64,000 bases of DNA from assembly GCF_030297155.1 (NCBI RefSeq), contig NZ_AP028067.1, positions 930,001 to 994,000 of the forward strand. Direction: 5' to 3'. Position 1 is the stretch's first letter, and the number at the start of each line of letters is the position of its first letter. This stretch comes from Vibrio sp. FE10. GTDB lineage: Bacteria; Pseudomonadota; Gammaproteobacteria; Enterobacterales; Vibrionaceae. Under the pieces are notes generated by a model that saw only the letters and a program-made list of their open reading frames with translations, was not told where the DNA came from and did no database searches. The position numbers and the translations under genes are program-made. Shown in pieces: positions 31,177 through 38,354 of this stretch.

Positions 31177-31962
31177 ATGTCTGTCAGTGTTTTAAGACTC
31201 TCGAGTTTACTTTTTATCGCAAGCTTAACGGTGGGCTGTTCTAGCGCACCAGACGAAAGCACTAACGATGATAACCTCGAAACTTCTGAATACGTCGAAG
31301 AGTCCCACCCGAATGATCCTTTCGAAGGATTCAACCGAGCGATGTGGGATATCAATTACGAATATCTAGACCCTTATTTAGTTCGCCCTGTCTCTCTCGC
31401 TTATGTTGGTTACACTCCTGTACCCGTTCGATCGGGTATCTCCAATTTTTTGGCCAACTTAGACGAACCCGCAAGCATGGTGAACAACTTATTCATGGGT
31501 AATGGCGAGAAAGCACTCGATCATTTCAACCGTTTTTGGATTAACTCAACATTTGGTTTGTTGGGTTTGATTGATATTGCGAGTGAAGCGGGTATCACCA
31601 AGTATGACGATAAGTCGTTTTCTGATGCGATTGGTCACTACGGGGTAGGGAATGGTCCTTACTTTATGGTTCCGGGTTATGGTCCTATTACGACTCGTGA
31701 AGTGACCGAGCAAGTGGATAGCTTGTATGTACCTTTGTCATTGATTAGCTTTTGGGCGAGTTTAGGTAAGTGGGCATTCGAAGGTATGGAGACTCGTGCA
31801 CAGTTAGTGTCGCAAGAAGCCTTGCTAGACGACTCGCCAGATCCGTATGCTTTAACGCGAGATGTTTATATTCAACGTCGTGACTTTAAAGCCGAGATTG
31901 AACCCGAAGAGGTCGATCTTGATGAAGAAGATTTCATCGATGGATACCTAGAAGATTACTAG
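31177..31962 (+). CDS. mlaA: Phospholipid-binding lipoprotein MlaA (VacJ)
   Basis: MlaA is an outer-membrane lipoprotein that removes misplaced phospholipids from the outer leaflet and passes them to MlaC. The 261 aa begin with a lipoprotein signal (lipobox LTVGC, lipidated Cys21) and carry the MlaA core (NDPFEGFNRAMWDINYE ... RPVSLAYVGYTPVPVRSG), followed by an acidic tail (EPEEVDLDEEDF). It is monocistronic between two terminators; AAAAGG precedes the ATG. Confidence 0.96.
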   Translation: MSVSVLRLSSLLFIASLTVGCSSAPDESTNDDNLETSEYVEESHPNDPFEGFNRAMWDINYEYLDPYLVRPVSLAYVGYTPVPVRSGISNFLANLDEPASMVNNLFMGNGEKALDHFNRFWINSTFGLLGLIDIASEAGITKYDDKSFSDAIGHYGVGNGPYFMVPGYGPITTREVTEQVDSLYVPLSLISFWASLGKWAFEGMETRAQLVSQEALLDDSPDPYALTRDVYIQRRDFKAEIEPEEVDLDEEDFIDGYLEDY

Positions 31963-32053: not shown

Positions 32054-33349
32054 TTAGAAACGGTAGTTAGCTTGGATACCTACTAGCCAAACGTTACCAG
32101 TTGTTGTACCAACAAATTGACCACCAACGACTTCTGCAGCGTCGTCAGATGCATAGCCACGTGATTCTGTGATTGGAGCATCTTTAGCAATGATGTATGT
32201 AAAGCCGGCATCTAATGACAGTTGCTCTGACCATTGGTAACCAGCACCAACACTTAGCCAAGTACGATCTGTTTCTGGGATTGTAATAGTACGATTCTTG
32301 TCGCTAACTGCCGAAGTATCATAAGCCACACCAGTACGTAGTGCTAGTTTTGGGTCAACTTGGTAAGTTGCACCTAAAGCAAGGCGGTAGTTATCTTCCC
32401 AATTTTCCACTTTAACTGTTTGGCTGCCGTATGTGTTTAATTCTGCTTGTAGTTTTTCGAAAGAACTCCAGTCAGTCCAGTTGAAGCTTGCATGAACAGC
32501 CAATGCTTCTGTTAGTTGATGGAAGCTTGCAAGCTCTGCTGTTGCAGGAAGTGCCAACATCATATGCCCGTTGTCACGTTGACCTGGTGCCATGCCAAAA
32601 CCGATGCCCTCTGCGTGACCTTCTAGTTTCAGTTCAACTTCAGACTTGTAGGCAAAACCGATGCGGTGGTCTTCGTTGATCTGCCATGCCGTACCTACTT
32701 GCCAACCCCAAGCTGTGTCATCACCTTCCATGTATTTCAGTGTAGTGCCTTCTGAAACTCCGATTGCATTTTTTGCTGGTGTTGTTGCACCAAAGCTACC
32801 TTCACCCATAACATAGCGAATACCACCACCAAGACTTACTTGCTCAACAACTTGATAAGCAAAGTTCAGGTTAGCTTCTTTAGTGATTACGCTTGCTTCA
32901 TTACCGAAGTGGGAAGCATTGAAATCATCGCTTAGGTTGGTTTCCATACCGTAGTTCGTGCCAAATGCAAAACCGATAGCAAATTTTTCGTTGTAACGGT
33001 GAGAAATGTAAAGGTTCGGGATAATAGCGTCATCTGCGAAATCGTTTGAAGATGCTTGGCTTGTACCTATAGCAGGGTGAGCGTGGTTTACTTCACCTTT
33101 AACATCAATGTTAGGGTTAACGTAGATACCACCAACAGAAACTTGTGTGCCTTCTAGGTAAGTCAGCATTGCAGGGTTACGCCATTGAGCATCCGCGCCG
33201 TCTGCCATTGCAGCTTCACCAGCGTACGCACGGCCAAGACCAGTTGCTGAGTATTCTGCTAATTGAAAACCTGCCGCTTGAGTCACGGTAGAAGTCGAAA
33301 GTAGTCCAACTGCCACTGCAGCAGATAGAAGAGTCTTATTCATTTTCAT
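32054..33349 (-). CDS. fadL: FadL-family outer membrane transporter (paralogue 1)
   Basis: This 431-aa protein is a 14-stranded outer-membrane barrel of the FadL/TodX family, which lets long-chain fatty acids or other hydrophobic molecules pass laterally through the barrel wall. It has a signal peptide ending TQAAGFQLAEYSATGLGR, where the mature N-terminus with the FadL plug motif begins, the NPA motif in the hatch (QWRNPAML) and a C-terminal aromatic residue (YRF). It is tandem with a second paralogue upstream; the pair next to fadIJ suggests fatty-acid uptake, though the exact substrate is unproven. Confidence 0.9.
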   Translation of the reverse strand: MKMNKTLLSAAVAVGLLSTSTVTQAAGFQLAEYSATGLGRAYAGEAAMADGADAQWRNPAMLTYLEGTQVSVGGIYVNPNIDVKGEVNHAHPAIGTSQASSNDFADDAIIPNLYISHRYNEKFAIGFAFGTNYGMETNLSDDFNASHFGNEASVITKEANLNFAYQVVEQVSLGGGIRYVMGEGSFGATTPAKNAIGVSEGTTLKYMEGDDTAWGWQVGTAWQINEDHRIGFAYKSEVELKLEGHAEGIGFGMAPGQRDNGHMMLALPATAELASFHQLTEALAVHASFNWTDWSSFEKLQAELNTYGSQTVKVENWEDNYRLALGATYQVDPKLALRTGVAYDTSAVSDKNRTITIPETDRTWLSVGAGYQWSEQLSLDAGFTYIIAKDAPITESRGYASDDAAEVVGGQFVGTTTGNVWLVGIQANYRF

Positions 33350-33645: not shown

Positions 33646-34908
33646 TTAGAAGCTACGGCTGTACTGCAGACCCATTAGGATTGCATCAGCACGAGTTGTT
33701 GCTGAAATTGACGAAACAACAGAAGTTGATTCGTTGACTTTAACATCGTCGCCCATTAGGTATGTGAAACCAAAGTCTACGTTTGATGCTTCGTTGATGT
33801 GGTATGTGAAACCAGCTGAGAACCATTGGCGGTCTGAATCTGGCACTGAAACTGAAGTTACTTCATCTTGTGCGCTAGTGTCATACATGTAGCCGGCACG
33901 AAGTGTCCAATCACGATTCATGTAATATGTACCACCTAGAGAGTAGTGCATACCATTTTGCCATTCGTAATTATTTAGAACACCCGCTTTTTCTGCTTCT
34001 AGCTTGTCAAATGAGCTCCAACCAATCCATTGTACTGAATAGTGAACCGCGAATTTAGTATCTTCGATTTTGTGAAAGCCAGAGAACTCAACAATATCAG
34101 GTAGAGGCATATAAAGAGTATCATCTTTATATTCAGTGCCTTGGTAACTGATATCTCCTTCAGCTTCAAGCTTCGGAGAGTAGTGATAAGCCAAACCAAA
34201 ACGGTTGCTTTCATTCAATTCGAAAACAGTACCAAGGTTAAAGCCAACAGCCCAGCCATCTGCTTCAGCGTCAAGAACGGTTTGTCCTGCTTGAGGTAGC
34301 AATGGGCTAGGTGGAGTACCAACTTCTGAACTCATTGTTCGTTTCAGCTCGCCTTTACCGTAAATAAGATCAAGGCCAGCGCCGAAGCTCCATTGATCGT
34401 TTAAACGGTACGAACCAGCTAGGCCAAAGTTAACACTTTTTACATCTGTAAGACCGCCGTATTCACCACCCACATAGCTATCGCTGAACTCAGTTTTTGT
34501 ACCAAAGTTCGAATAAGCATTGAAGCCTACAGCAAACTTTTCGTTGATAGGAACAATAAGGTGAATATTTGGAGCTATAGAAGTATCACCAGCATCGTCA
34601 TAATCAGCATTGCTGGAGGTGCTTCCCATGAAGCCTTTATAGGTAGCATCTTTAACTTCAATCATTGAAGTGATGCTTTCAAAACCAAGAGATAGCTCAG
34701 TTTTATCAAATAGTGCCATTGCTGCAGGGTTACGTGCCATTACTGACGCGTTATCTGCGATTACTGCATCACCAGCGAAAGCACGGCCGATGCCGGTTGC
34801 TGATTGTGCGTTAAGTTGGAAACCTGCTGCCATCGCTTGCGAAGACGCCAGTGTGATTGTTACTGCTAAAAGAGACTTTTTAAACAGACGCGTGTTGTTG
34901 GTAGTCAT
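33646..34908 (-). CDS. fadL: FadL-family outer membrane transporter (paralogue 2)
   Basis: This second FadL/TodX-type barrel (420 aa) has a signal peptide ending in MAAGFQLNAQSATGIGRA, the ARNPAAMAL hatch motif and C-terminal Phe (YSRSF), a BAM targeting signal. It is clearly paralogous to the gene downstream but diverged. AAGGAA lies 8 bp before the ATG. A FadR-like half-conserved operator is about 100 bp upstream. Having its own terminator, it is transcribed separately from paralogue 1. Confidence 0.9.
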   Translation of the reverse strand: MTTNNTRLFKKSLLAVTITLASSQAMAAGFQLNAQSATGIGRAFAGDAVIADNASVMARNPAAMALFDKTELSLGFESITSMIEVKDATYKGFMGSTSSNADYDDAGDTSIAPNIHLIVPINEKFAVGFNAYSNFGTKTEFSDSYVGGEYGGLTDVKSVNFGLAGSYRLNDQWSFGAGLDLIYGKGELKRTMSSEVGTPPSPLLPQAGQTVLDAEADGWAVGFNLGTVFELNESNRFGLAYHYSPKLEAEGDISYQGTEYKDDTLYMPLPDIVEFSGFHKIEDTKFAVHYSVQWIGWSSFDKLEAEKAGVLNNYEWQNGMHYSLGGTYYMNRDWTLRAGYMYDTSAQDEVTSVSVPDSDRQWFSAGFTYHINEASNVDFGFTYLMGDDVKVNESTSVVSSISATTRADAILMGLQYSRSF

Positions 34909-35205: not shown

Positions 35206-35934
35206 TTAGCTCATCGGTTTGATCATTTTTGTTAGCTTTTCGGCGATTTTAGAAACGTCCTCGCCATTTTCACCCACAAGGATAAGGCTGCTGTTATCAA
35301 TCGGTGTTACTGAACCAGACATACCTTCTTCGTCAAAATCGACGGGCTTTTCTGTCGGAATCCCAGTCAAAAACAGTGTGACTTTGCCTTTTTGACCTTG
35401 GAAGACCATATGTACAGCGTTGGACTTACCAAAACCACAATGGTTCAGGTAGTAAACGTGATAAGGAAACGCTTCATCAAACTGAAAAGCAAATGGGTTC
35501 ATCTTGGCATTGATTTGTTGTGATGTGACTTGTTCGTCGATTGCGCTAACGAAGCTCTTTTCATCAACAACATGTTTCATTGCTGTATCAACCAAGCTTG
35601 CTTGAGCTGGAGAGACTAACGCATTTCCCCAGTTAACTTGGCCAACAAGTAAACCGGCAACGAATGCAACTGAGGCTGCCATCGCCATCGCTCGTCGAGC
35701 AAAAGTAGGCCTTACTACTTTGCTTTCTTCGCTTGAGGTCTGATTGAACAGAATACGATCTGCGAGATCGTCTGGCACATCCACGTTCATTGCTGAGTGG
35801 ATCTGCTTATCAAGCGATAGTACATCGTCTAAAAAGTTACTATTGGCTTCGCTATTTGTAGCTGCATCAATAATATCTTGTGTACGTTGCTTAGGTTCCG
35901 ACAATACACGACGACGAAATTCCAAATCATCCAT
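35206..35934 (-). CDS. DUF3379 membrane protein, likely anti-sigma partner
   Basis: The 242 aa have a cytoplasmic N-terminal region (about 1-78, MDDLEFRRRVLSEPKQ), one membrane helix (about 83-100, MAMAASVAFVAGLLVGQ) and an extracytoplasmic domain. I recognise the DUF3379 type. Cotranscription with an ECF sigma factor (8-bp overlap) and the cytoplasm/one-helix/periplasm topology suggest an anti-sigma factor. There is no clear zinc-binding ASD motif, so the role is inferred. AGGGGG lies 7 bp before the ATG. Confidence 0.75.
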   Translation of the reverse strand: MDDLEFRRRVLSEPKQRTQDIIDAATNSEANSNFLDDVLSLDKQIHSAMNVDVPDDLADRILFNQTSSEESKVVRPTFARRAMAMAASVAFVAGLLVGQVNWGNALVSPAQASLVDTAMKHVVDEKSFVSAIDEQVTSQQINAKMNPFAFQFDEAFPYHVYYLNHCGFGKSNAVHMVFQGQKGKVTLFLTGIPTEKPVDFDEEGMSGSVTPIDNSSLILVGENGEDVSKIAEKLTKMIKPMS

Positions 35935-36490
35935 TATGTTGCCCCCTCTCTGCCTCTTCTGTATCCAGCATCTCTTTCAACTGATTTCGAGCTCTGAATA
36001 AACGTGTCATTACCGTGTTTTTGTTGAGATCGAGAATGTCCGCGATCTCATCACCACTAAACCCACCAATGACTTGTAAGAAGAGCGGTTCACGGTAATC
36101 AATTTCAAGTTTCATGATCTGAGCTTGCAACCACAGATGTTGATGGTGTGGGTCATCACTGACACTAGCATCATTACCATGATCGTCGATATCAACCAGA
36201 TCAAACTGTTTGCGTTCAAAACGTCGAGCGTTTTCGCGGCGCAAGATAGTAATCAGCCAAGACTTCGCGGCTTTTTCATCTTGTAGGCTATCGAGTGACT
36301 TCCATGCACGAAGGCAAGTCTCTTGTACTAAATCTTCGGCAATGCTTTTGTCTTTACATAACCAATAGGCGTAGCGAAAGAGGTCACGATGATAGGCACG
36401 CACGAGTGCTTCGTATTTTCTTTGTTTGTCCATATCAGAGTTGACCGGACGCTTGGCTGTTTTCTTTCCAAACATTTTTATTATTGACAC
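35927..36490 (-). CDS. ECF-type RNA polymerase sigma factor
   Basis: The 187 aa have sigma region 2 (ALVRAYHRDLFRYAYWLC ... AEDLVQETCLRAWKSL) and region 4 (FSGDEIADILDLNKNTVMTRLFRAR) with no sigma 1/3 domains, i.e. group 4. The start is set at a GTG (36490) because GGAGG lies exactly 5 bp upstream; an ATG four codons earlier overlaps that site. Regulon and inducing signal are unknown; the conserved position between fadL and fadIJ suggests envelope or lipid stress. Confidence 0.9.
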   Translation of the reverse strand: MSIIKMFGKKTAKRPVNSDMDKQRKYEALVRAYHRDLFRYAYWLCKDKSIAEDLVQETCLRAWKSLDSLQDEKAAKSWLITILRRENARRFERKQFDLVDIDDHGNDASVSDDPHHQHLWLQAQIMKLEIDYREPLFLQVIGGFSGDEIADILDLNKNTVMTRLFRARNQLKEMLDTEEAERGQHNG

Positions 36491-36644
36491 ACGAGCCTCC
36501 ATAATTGCTCTGCGTATAGCTGTCCTCTATACGTCGTGCTTCGTTTTTATATTTTTAGAGCTAACGATCGGCAGGAAATCGTAAAATCACATTAAAATTG
36601 ATCTACTTCAAAATCTAAGGCCTCGAACAAGCTATAGTACACCT

Positions 36645-36807
36645 TGTCGTCTAGTTAGTCATTCGTGGCTAGCATGTTGAGCAAGACGACACTTCCTTTT
36701 GAAGGCTGACTTTACTTTCTCCTAATCAGGAAACTGATTATTTCAATTGGCGTTAAGTTAATTGCTTTATATACATTCCGACCACACAGCTTTGTGTGGT
36801 TTTTTTT
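36645..36807 (+). ncRNA. Candidate small RNA upstream of fadI (about 160 nt)
   Basis: This interval has no ORF but strong nested structure. An outer stem TGTCGTCT (36645-36652) pairs perfectly with AGACGACA (36684-36691). Inside it GTTAGTCA and TGGCTAGC (36654-36661, 36666-36673) form an 8-bp stem with two G-U pairs capped by a TTCG tetraloop (36662-36665). Next come a small CCTT/AAGG hairpin and AATCAG-GAAA-CTGATT. It ends in a classic terminator. A TATAGT -10-like hexamer (36633-36638) is correctly placed; no good -35 is seen. I do not recognise the family. Confidence 0.55.
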
Positions 36808-36808
36808 T
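36781..36808 (+). terminator. Rho-independent terminator of the candidate small RNA
   Basis: ACCACACA (36781-36788), loop GCTT, TGTGTGGT (36793-36800), followed by eight T. No + strand protein gene precedes it within 4.8 kb, so it must end a non-coding or unannotated transcript. Confidence 0.9.
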
Positions 36809-36981
36809 GCCTTCAGAAAATACTCCGATACAAAACCATCGACTCTTTACCTACGCATAACAGTCTCTACTAGCAATAGTTTAGTCTCTTAGGACAACCT
36901 TTCCCCCAAAAAGGTTCGCCTGAATGCCCAGTTATATTTTCAAACAGTGAGATACTCGTATCACGTTTATTTAAACGCTCG

Positions 36982-37026
36982 TTTGATTTAATTAACAACT
37001 TCTTTACAATGCTTCAGGTCAGACCT
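36982..37026 (+). promoter_or_regulatory. fadIJ promoter with FadR-like operator
   Basis: TTTGAT (36982-36987) and TACAAT (37005-37010) are 17 bp apart, giving a sigma-70 promoter with a start near 37017. The palindrome AGGTCAGACCT (37016-37026) matches the GGTCnGACC core of FadR operators and covers the start site, so FadR would repress and long-chain acyl-CoA would relieve it, as in E. coli fad genes. Confidence 0.65.
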
Positions 37027-37046
37027 CTTAACTTTAAGGAGAAACC

Positions 37047-38354
37047 ATGGGCAAACAGGAAGTCAAAACGCGTTCTGGAGAACGTGTTGCCGTTGTCGCT
37101 GGACTACGAACCCCATTCGCTCGTCAGAGTACAGAATTTAGCCAAGTGCCTGCGGTTGACCTAGGCAAAATGGTCGTGAGTGAAATGCTTGCGCGAACAG
37201 ATATCGATCCTGCGCTTATTGAACAAGTCGTGTTCGGTCAAGTAGTACAGATGCCAGAAGCGCCAAACATTGCACGTGAAATTGTGCTTGGTACTGGTAT
37301 GGATATTAATACCGACGCGTACAGCGTGACACGAGCTTGTGCAACGAGCTTTCAAGCCGCTGTTAACGTGGCCGAGAGTATTATGGCTGGCACGATTGAT
37401 GTTGGTATTGCTGGTGGGGCGGATTCTTCTTCTGTATTGCCAATCGGTGTTTCGAAAAAGTTAGCGGCAAACTTATTAGCGCTCAGCAAAACCAAGACAA
37501 TGGGTCAAAAGCTTAAGATTCTTAAAACGCTTTCCGTTAAAGATCTTATGCCAGTACCGCCTGCTGTTGCTGAATACTCGACCGGTTTATCAATGGGTCA
37601 AACCGCTGAGCAGATGGCGAAAACTCATGGTATTACCCGTCAAGAACAAGACGCACTTGCTCACCGTTCTCACTCTTTGGCTTCTCAAGCTTGGAAAGAG
37701 GGCAAGATCCAAGGCGAAGTGATGACAGCCTTCCCAGCGCCTTATAAAAAGTATTTAGCAGAAGACAACAACATTCGTCATGACTCGACGGTTGAAGGCT
37801 ACGCTAAATTACGCCCTGCATTCGACAGACAATACGGCAGTGTAACGGCAGCCAATGCCACGCCTCTTACCGATGGCGGTGCCGCGGTGATGTTGATGCG
37901 CGAAGGCAAAGCGAAAGAGCTAGGCTTAGAAGTGCTTGGTTACATTCGTGGTTACGCGTTCTCAGCGATTGGTGTTGAAACGGATATGTTGATGGGCCCG
38001 ACTTACGCGACCTCTCAAGTTTTGAAGAACACCGGTCTAGAATTATCAGATCTAACACTTATCGAGATGCATGAAGCGTTTGCAGCGCAAGTTCTGGCTA
38101 ACGTCAAAATGTTTGCGAGCGATGAGTTTGCTCAGAAGAATCTTGGCCGTGACAAAGCGATCGGTGAGATTGATATGGAGAAGTTCAACGTTCTGGGTAG
38201 CTCAATTGCTTACGGACACCCGTTTGCAGCGACTGGCGCACGAATGATGACTCAAACACTGCGTGAACTTAAACGCCGTGGTGGTGGCTTAGCATTGAAC
38301 ACAGCTTGTGCGGCTGGTGGATTAGGTGCAGCAATGATCTTGGAGGTGGAATAA
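37047..38354 (+). CDS. fadI: 3-ketoacyl-CoA thiolase FadI
   Basis: FadI cleaves 3-ketoacyl-CoA with CoA in the last step of beta-oxidation and pairs with FadJ. The 435 aa have the nucleophilic Cys98 ([11 protein letters not shown]), the [19 protein letters not shown] motif with the active His, and the second Cys in [20 protein letters not shown] lies just before the ATG. It overlaps fadJ by one base (TAATG). Confidence 0.96.

Follow-up and report, generated by a model that had tools for sequence, protein, structure and literature searches.

The window analysed here is a stretch of 64,000 nucleotides from Vibrio sp. FE10 (contig NZ_AP028067.1, positions 930,001 to 994,000). Our subject is the gap at 36503-37046 in it, which lies between the divergent gene for an extracytoplasmic function (ECF) sigma factor and fadI and holds a candidate small RNA (sRNA) on the + strand. 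A preliminary description, made from the letters alone, had proposed a structured sRNA at this place. Features, conservation and covariation all agree with that proposal, and the last two go far beyond chance: the gap does contain a real, structured and terminated + strand small RNA. The gap was given as 556 bp at the time; with the longest frame of the ECF gene (start 36502) it measures 544 bp. The features are the following, those of the RNA before those of its surroundings.

36598..36611, + strand: FNR-type box TTGAT-CTAC-TTCAA (TTGATCTACTTCAA), centre 36604.5, agreeing at 9 of 10 positions with TTGAT-N4-ATCAA, which we take to be the FNR consensus
36633..36638, + strand: -10 box TATAGT, 21 nt past the FNR-type box
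36645..36808, + strand: small RNA of about 164 nt, both ends predicted; likely orthologue of Vcr043 of Vibrio cholerae
36645..36691, + strand: 5' stem-loop domain with outer and inner stems; long insert in Photobacterium-like copies
36691..36722, + strand: core ACTTCCTTTTGAAGGCTGACTTTACTTTCTCC, near-invariant and largely single-stranded, the presumed base-pairing region
36723-36740 and 36744-36764, + strand: two further hairpins of the fold, outside the RNAalifold consensus
36780..36808, + strand: intrinsic terminator, stem 36780-36801, nine T at 36800-36808
35927..36502, - strand: ECF sigma factor gene, PRK12517 subfamily (NCBIfam, 326 bits), with Pfam Sigma70_r2 and r4
37047..38354, + strand: fadI (TIGR02446, 858.7 bits)
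37017..37025, + strand: GGTCAGACC palindrome upstream of fadI, in our view FadR-operator-like

Structure and conservation of the RNA

The predicted fold has an energy of -45.3 kcal/mol (z = -3.53), and an equally low energy was reached by 1 of 200 shuffled sequences. Most details of the preliminary description were found again, namely the TATAGT box at 36633-36638, the perfect outer stem of 8 bp (36645-36652 with 36684-36691) and the two additional hairpins. The inner stem (36654-36661 with 36666-36673) indeed has 8 bp and a UUCG loop, but it is not perfect, as G-U pairs are included; likewise the terminator is a textbook one, with a run of nine T rather than eight. It is also correct that no + strand gene precedes this terminator for 4.8 kb, the preceding long + strand gene stopping at 31962. 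That the RNA could be the 3' end of a longer transcript had been named as a refuting outcome, and it meets with the same absence of a preceding gene.

Covariation was judged on an alignment (A1) of 46 diverse sequences picked by hand from 79 distinct ones. This set is biased towards intact copies, because L060, a decayed-looking copy with changes in core and box, is among the sequences omitted. RNAalifold finds 28 pairs in A1, and both sides have changed in 15 of them. The covariation score is 0.276 against a mean of 0.135 after shuffling (none of 500 shuffles as high), and slid partners give at most 0.074. Two-sided variation occurs at all seven consensus pairs of the inner stem. A 5-pair stem within the core is invariant and hence uninformative, and the hairpins at 36723-36764 are not covered by the covariation result. 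The covariation check proposed in the preliminary description thus turned out in favour of the RNA, its stems being kept in relatives by compensatory changes; a loss of the stems in close relatives, another refuting outcome that had been named, did not occur.

The core behaves differently from the stems. From ACTTCC through TTTCTC almost no letter changes in A1, and positions 36691-36721 have a mean unpaired probability of 0.67. A fixed and mostly unpaired stretch is what one expects of a region with several mRNA partners.

When 36620-36812 served as query in a DNA search, 197 of the 227 genomes of the genus gave a match; with 36650-36812, matches came from 121 of 150 genomes sampled across the family and fell in 8 of 13 genera. 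A covariance model built from the 46 sequences of A1 (R1) recovered 6 further genomes out of 36 unmatched ones that were scanned. Named genomes were scanned with 20 bases of the core, which gave at least 117 stretches; our counts for named loci refer to the 80 of these that are listed. All 80 belong to Vibrionaceae (Vibrio, Photobacterium, Aliivibrio, Enterovibrio, Grimontia), V. mimicus and V. metoecus included. A T-run follows the core in 79 of them, fadI lies downstream on the same strand within 1.2 kb in 78, and a divergent ECF gene is present within 1.5 kb in 65 (contig ends cut some loci). The same 20 bases were found in no viral contig.

Outside the family no convincing homologue was obtained. 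R1, run with stricter filters on 148 genomes of the order, gave 12 matches, eight in the genus and four outside it (L358-L361). By eye these four are gene ends with terminators, and none has an FNR-type box, so we regard them as chance matches. No Rfam family could be assigned either: the whole window has no match at gathering score, matches within the gap are at chance level alone (E 1.4 and 8.4), and among the loci scanned only E. coli fnrS exceeded its cut-off.

We also examined 29 fadI loci from 30 genomes missed by the DNA search, six of which were found by R1. In 12 of these loci the box TTGAT-N5-TCAA, the 21-nt spacer and a -10-like box are kept while the RNA has diverged, and nine of these 12 copies have the word YUUCC. 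Among the copies upstream of fadI, L120-L122, L125, L127 and L141-L144 are strongly diverged but retain box, spacer, -10-like box and T-run; their core is altered, as if the target set had shifted. At L118 (genome G069), one of the 29 loci, both the sRNA and its FNR-type box have decayed, and L119 (G105) has no trace of the sRNA by the patterns used; the two together are possibly a natural loss series.

Correspondence with Vcr043 of V. cholerae

The gene downstream of the RNA, fadI, presumably corresponds to VC1046 of V. cholerae. The preliminary description did not recognise a known Vibrio sRNA here. This has to be revised, since published passages on V. cholerae describe an sRNA, Vcr043, to which the RNA of the window corresponds (PMC8545128, PMC9732341). 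Vcr043 lies between VC1045, a sigma factor gene read in the opposite direction, and VC1046, and is about 160 nt long; the transcription starts of VC1045 and Vcr043 are 25 bp apart, and their predicted promoters overlap (passages of PMC8545128). The RNA of the window is likewise intergenic between the ECF gene and fadI, is transcribed away from the sigma factor gene, and ends at an intrinsic terminator after a predicted 164 nt. By place, strand and size it is likely an orthologue of Vcr043. The comparison was made with the published description rather than with the V. cholerae sequence, and on that basis no differences are demonstrated. V. cholerae is absent from the 80 listed stretches; V. mimicus (L212) and V. 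metoecus (L224) have the same RNA, core included, in the same arrangement and at the same place. We also considered srvg23535 of V. alginolyticus, which according to the available passage is flanked by rctB and is a different RNA.

Several properties of Vcr043 have been reported. It is called uncharacterised, with high numbers of chimeras in RNA interaction by ligation and sequencing (RIL-seq), and four of its RIL-seq targets were validated, three of them (grxA, vc0036 and sdhC) being involved in electron transport (PMC9732341). Its stability is cited as Hfq-dependent (PMC5089854), it is processed by RNase E (PMC7398697), and it activates an rpoS fusion approximately threefold (PMC8545128). 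Single mentions occur in PMC7695739 and PMC9438474.

The FNR-type box and the alternatives

The FNR-type box is an addition of the present analysis and is missing from the preliminary description. Its conservation was followed through 110 loci, some of which share a genome; their homologous stretches amount to 92 distinct ones, which were aligned. TTGAT-N5-TCAA stands at the aligned place in 88 of the 92 (the exceptions are L035, L036, L056 and L060). In every stretch a spacer of 21 nt, variable in its letters, leads to the -10 box, which reads TATAGT in 81, TATATT in 10 and TAATAT in one. At the listed named loci, a box followed by a spacer of 18-24 nt and TATANT was found upstream of the core in 74 of 80, all except L184, L203, L207, L209, L211 and L247. 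The centre of the box is 28.5 bp from the first base of the -10 box, which we assume to be within about one base of the geometry of class II FNR promoters. A simple sigma-70 scan returned no -35/-10 pair at the sRNA promoter, as expected if this promoter depends on an activator of class II. All 30 genomes tested have a gene for Fnr, three genomes without the RNA among them. From these sequence patterns we infer that the sRNA promoter would be controlled by FNR.

The same sRNA could instead have a promoter that responds chiefly to CRP (carbon status) or depends on constitutive sigma-70 activity, FNR being of minor importance. We find this unlikely, although it deserves serious attention. Sites for CRP are related to those for FNR, and -41.5 is a position from which CRP, too, acts. 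Moreover, Vcr043 is visible in lysogeny broth (LB) at all growth phases, with Northern signals at similar levels throughout growth, according to passages of PMC8545128; this fits a constitutive promoter and also weighs against control by oxygen. The box itself speaks for FNR. Its half-site is TTGA and not GTGA, and at the aligned place the FNR consensus is matched at 9 of 10 positions in 88 stretches and at 8 in the remaining 4, whereas the CRP consensus is matched at 8 of 10 in a single stretch, at 7 in 74, and at 6 or fewer in 17 of the 92 (6 in 16, 5 in 1).

With regard to the place of the box, one may ask if it mainly serves the divergent ECF sigma factor gene. The two V. cholerae transcription starts, so close together and with overlapping predicted promoters, give some ground for that (passages of PMC8545128). 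However, the spacing is fixed between the box and the -10 box of the sRNA, and TTGAT-N5-TCAA persists in 10 of 13 stretches from loci without an ECF match. (There are 15 such loci, judged on flanks of 1.5 kb only; two were omitted, namely L078, which shares its genome with L032, and L088, whose contig is short.) In our opinion, a main role for the ECF gene is very improbable.

A similar question arises on the other side of the RNA, which may be suspected of being the leader of fadIJ (a 5' untranslated region (UTR), attenuator or riboswitch), the short RNA then being only its terminated product. Indeed it lies directly upstream of fadI on the same strand at nearly all listed named loci, and Vcr043 is among 14 V. 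cholerae sRNAs that might double as 5' UTRs, as a passage of PMC5089854 has it. On the contrary, the terminator with its nine T is strong, core and fadI are anywhere between 136 and 610 nt apart across the 78 loci with fadI, and Vcr043 has a reported Hfq-dependent stability and trans targets. Past the terminator come a promoter-like pair at 36983-37010, of a kind expected by chance in this region, and the FadR-operator-like palindrome. The latter sits directly before fadI and suggests that fadI may have its own FadR-controlled promoter downstream of the sRNA terminator. We would therefore give the leader very little credit. Letters like GGTCAGACC also stand upstream of fadI in several relatives.

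The least credible alternative is that the RNA has two functions and doubles as the message of a conserved micro-peptide, whose stop would be the TGA of GGCTGA in the core. An in-frame ATG or GTG exists for that stop in 74 of 92 stretches, but inside the frame the spacing between GAGCA and GAAGGCTG is 22 nt in 66, 23 in 8, 21 in 5, 25 in 4 and 26 in 1 of the 90 measured (the other six values run from 38 to 146 and probably start from a different GAGCA), so that the frame shifts between lineages, which disfavours this reading.

The preliminary description had placed the RNA in lipid or envelope control because of its neighbours. We do not follow it in this, since the RNA persists at many loci at which no nearby ECF gene was found, and the box together with the published targets points to respiration; fadI does remain adjacent at 78 of the 80 listed named loci. 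As to the neighbours themselves, two tandem genes for FadL-type outer-membrane proteins and a DUF3379 gene lie beside the ECF gene (32054-33349, 33646-34908 and 35206-35934, - strand), and the DUF3379 gene is probably the anti-sigma partner of the ECF sigma factor.

Proposed action, resemblance to FnrS and meaning

Having considered these alternatives, we propose that the gap encodes a stand-alone, trans-acting sRNA of the Hfq type, the orthologue of Vcr043, which is activated by FNR and masks respiratory ribosome-binding sites in the manner of FnrS; we put the probability of this at roughly 0.7. At low oxygen, active FNR would occupy the box at about -41 and recruit RNA polymerase as a class II activator. 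The transcript would fold into its 5' stem-loop domain and end at the strong terminator, and the core ACUUCCUUUUGAAGGCUGACUUUACUUUCUCC would lower the translation of mRNAs that serve aerobic electron transport, for example sdhC, by pairing with their ribosome-binding sites. The overall action would be like that of enterobacterial FnrS. Our own analysis contributes the conservation of the RNA, its structure, terminator and place, the conserved box with its fixed spacing, and the presence of the Fnr gene; the transcript, its association with Hfq and its targets come from the V. cholerae reports of others.

Pairing was tested between a 36-nt core and gene starts, with 54 gene starts of the window, taken by a crude rule, as background. 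Against the start region of sdhC in the window's genome the core gives -23.4 kcal/mol, and 1 of the 54 window starts is as strong or stronger. The best predicted duplex includes a TGAGTG stretch just before the start codon in 23 of 28 sdhC loci (read by eye). Masking of the ribosome-binding site, which published contacts support, and a repression of sdhC through its start region would be consistent with these duplexes.

Several observations weigh against the proposal and should be given together. The z-scores of the sdhC duplexes range from -3.2 to +0.7. Genomes without the RNA have the sdhC site too, and 5 of the 23 loci with the TGAGTG stretch are from genomes in which the RNA is absent or diverged (these five were scored using the window's core); the site is thus no proof that RNA and sdhC have evolved together. 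The pairing with grxA is not distinctive, 10 of the 54 window starts being equally strong, and in the grxA set 4 of 30 loci (G244, G289, G065 and G005) were read in the wrong frame. Target co-evolution was accordingly tried for both sdhC and grxA and not shown. The direction of sdhC control is unstated in the published passages. As for the promoter, the box alone occurs in the window at chance frequency (2 seen, 1.13 expected). Box and -10 box at 21 nt occur together once in the window and in none of 100 shuffles, with a pattern defined post hoc, and the conservation of the box is stronger evidence for it than its frequency. By the patterns used, 16 of the 29 fadI loci examined in missed genomes have neither box nor core, and G058, G013 and G027 show neither yet encode Fnr. 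Finally, the literature that we searched yielded no data on expression of the RNA or on binding of FNR to its promoter, and no report of FNR control; the search covered titles, the starts of abstracts and passages of the open literature, with subscription papers and preprints outside it, so such a report may exist.

The resemblance to FnrS consists of an FNR-type box near -42, a structured 5' part, the word ACUUCCUUUU in the middle and a 3' terminator. In E. coli fnrS the box is TTGAG-CGAA-GTCAA, centred at about -42, and ACTTCCTTTT lies at nt 50-59; the fnrS-I mutant changes U57-U59, inside that span (mutant positions from a passage of PMC8595263). The RNA of the window likewise has an FNR box at the class II position, as far as sequence can tell. 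The 10 bases of ACUUCCUUUU are common to both RNAs and start 85 nt past the box in E. coli and 80 nt past it in the window. Of 2000 shuffled pairs, 26 shared a word of such length and 1 had it at a matching position, to within 6 nt, the choice being post hoc. The differences are the neighbours (zntB/dbpA in E. coli, fadI here) and the length, 122 nt against 164 nt. RyhB and NrrF also act on succinate dehydrogenase mRNA but differ in being controlled by Fur (PMC2964681 and PMC5586341).

Similar wiring does not prove a common origin. The frnS model (RF01796) exceeds its cut-off in none of 41 genomes of the genus, is weak in 15 of the 41, is without a match in the window's genome, and has no match in the gap at E up to 10. 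In the other direction, R1 scores 10.0 bits on the E. coli fnrS locus and 9.6 bits on a stretch across dgcM at the same locus. With no convincing covariance-model match either way and a different synteny, membership in the FnrS family was rejected. Hence the RNA resembles FnrS and probably works like it, while the FnrS family model does not support common descent. FnrS has been dated as a gain within Enterobacteriales (passage of PMC4114697). In one genus of the family (L141-L144), however, the word is UUUCCUUUUUGAAU, by eye nearer to CUUCCUUUUUUGAAU of E. coli FnrS than the window's word is, which favours common descent. A composite pattern (FNR box, 72-102 nt, TTCCTTTT, GAA) occurs in 55 of 394 genomes of the order: 30 of this family, where 29 have it at this locus and G177 has it elsewhere, 16 of another family with the 5' sequence of E. 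coli FnrS, and 9 unrelated; its reversed control occurs in 10 genomes. Since the pattern was built from both RNAs, this result is descriptive only. Several genomes of the genus also have weak frnS matches (at most 33.5 bits, under the cut-off) at another locus, where the contig coordinates are close to one another (G202:C1:286388-286492, G040:C1:283840, G016:C1:276807, G216:C1:277123).

On balance we favour, with some reserve, the view that Vibrionaceae have their own FNR-activated sRNA with FnrS-like wiring and the same seed word, whether it arose by convergence or is an ancient homologue of FnrS that has been rearranged, and that loss of oxygen would lead through it to repression of sdhC and further genes of electron transport and to activation of rpoS. 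The physiological role that this suggests would be to lessen aerobic respiration when oxygen is lost. Vcr043 was already known as an uncharacterised sRNA; new are the conserved FNR-type promoter and the FnrS-like wiring. This promoter proposes a signal for Vcr043, one that agrees with its electron-transport targets, and makes its function directly testable. If our proposal is true, oxygen control of the FnrS type would extend to a large and mostly marine family.
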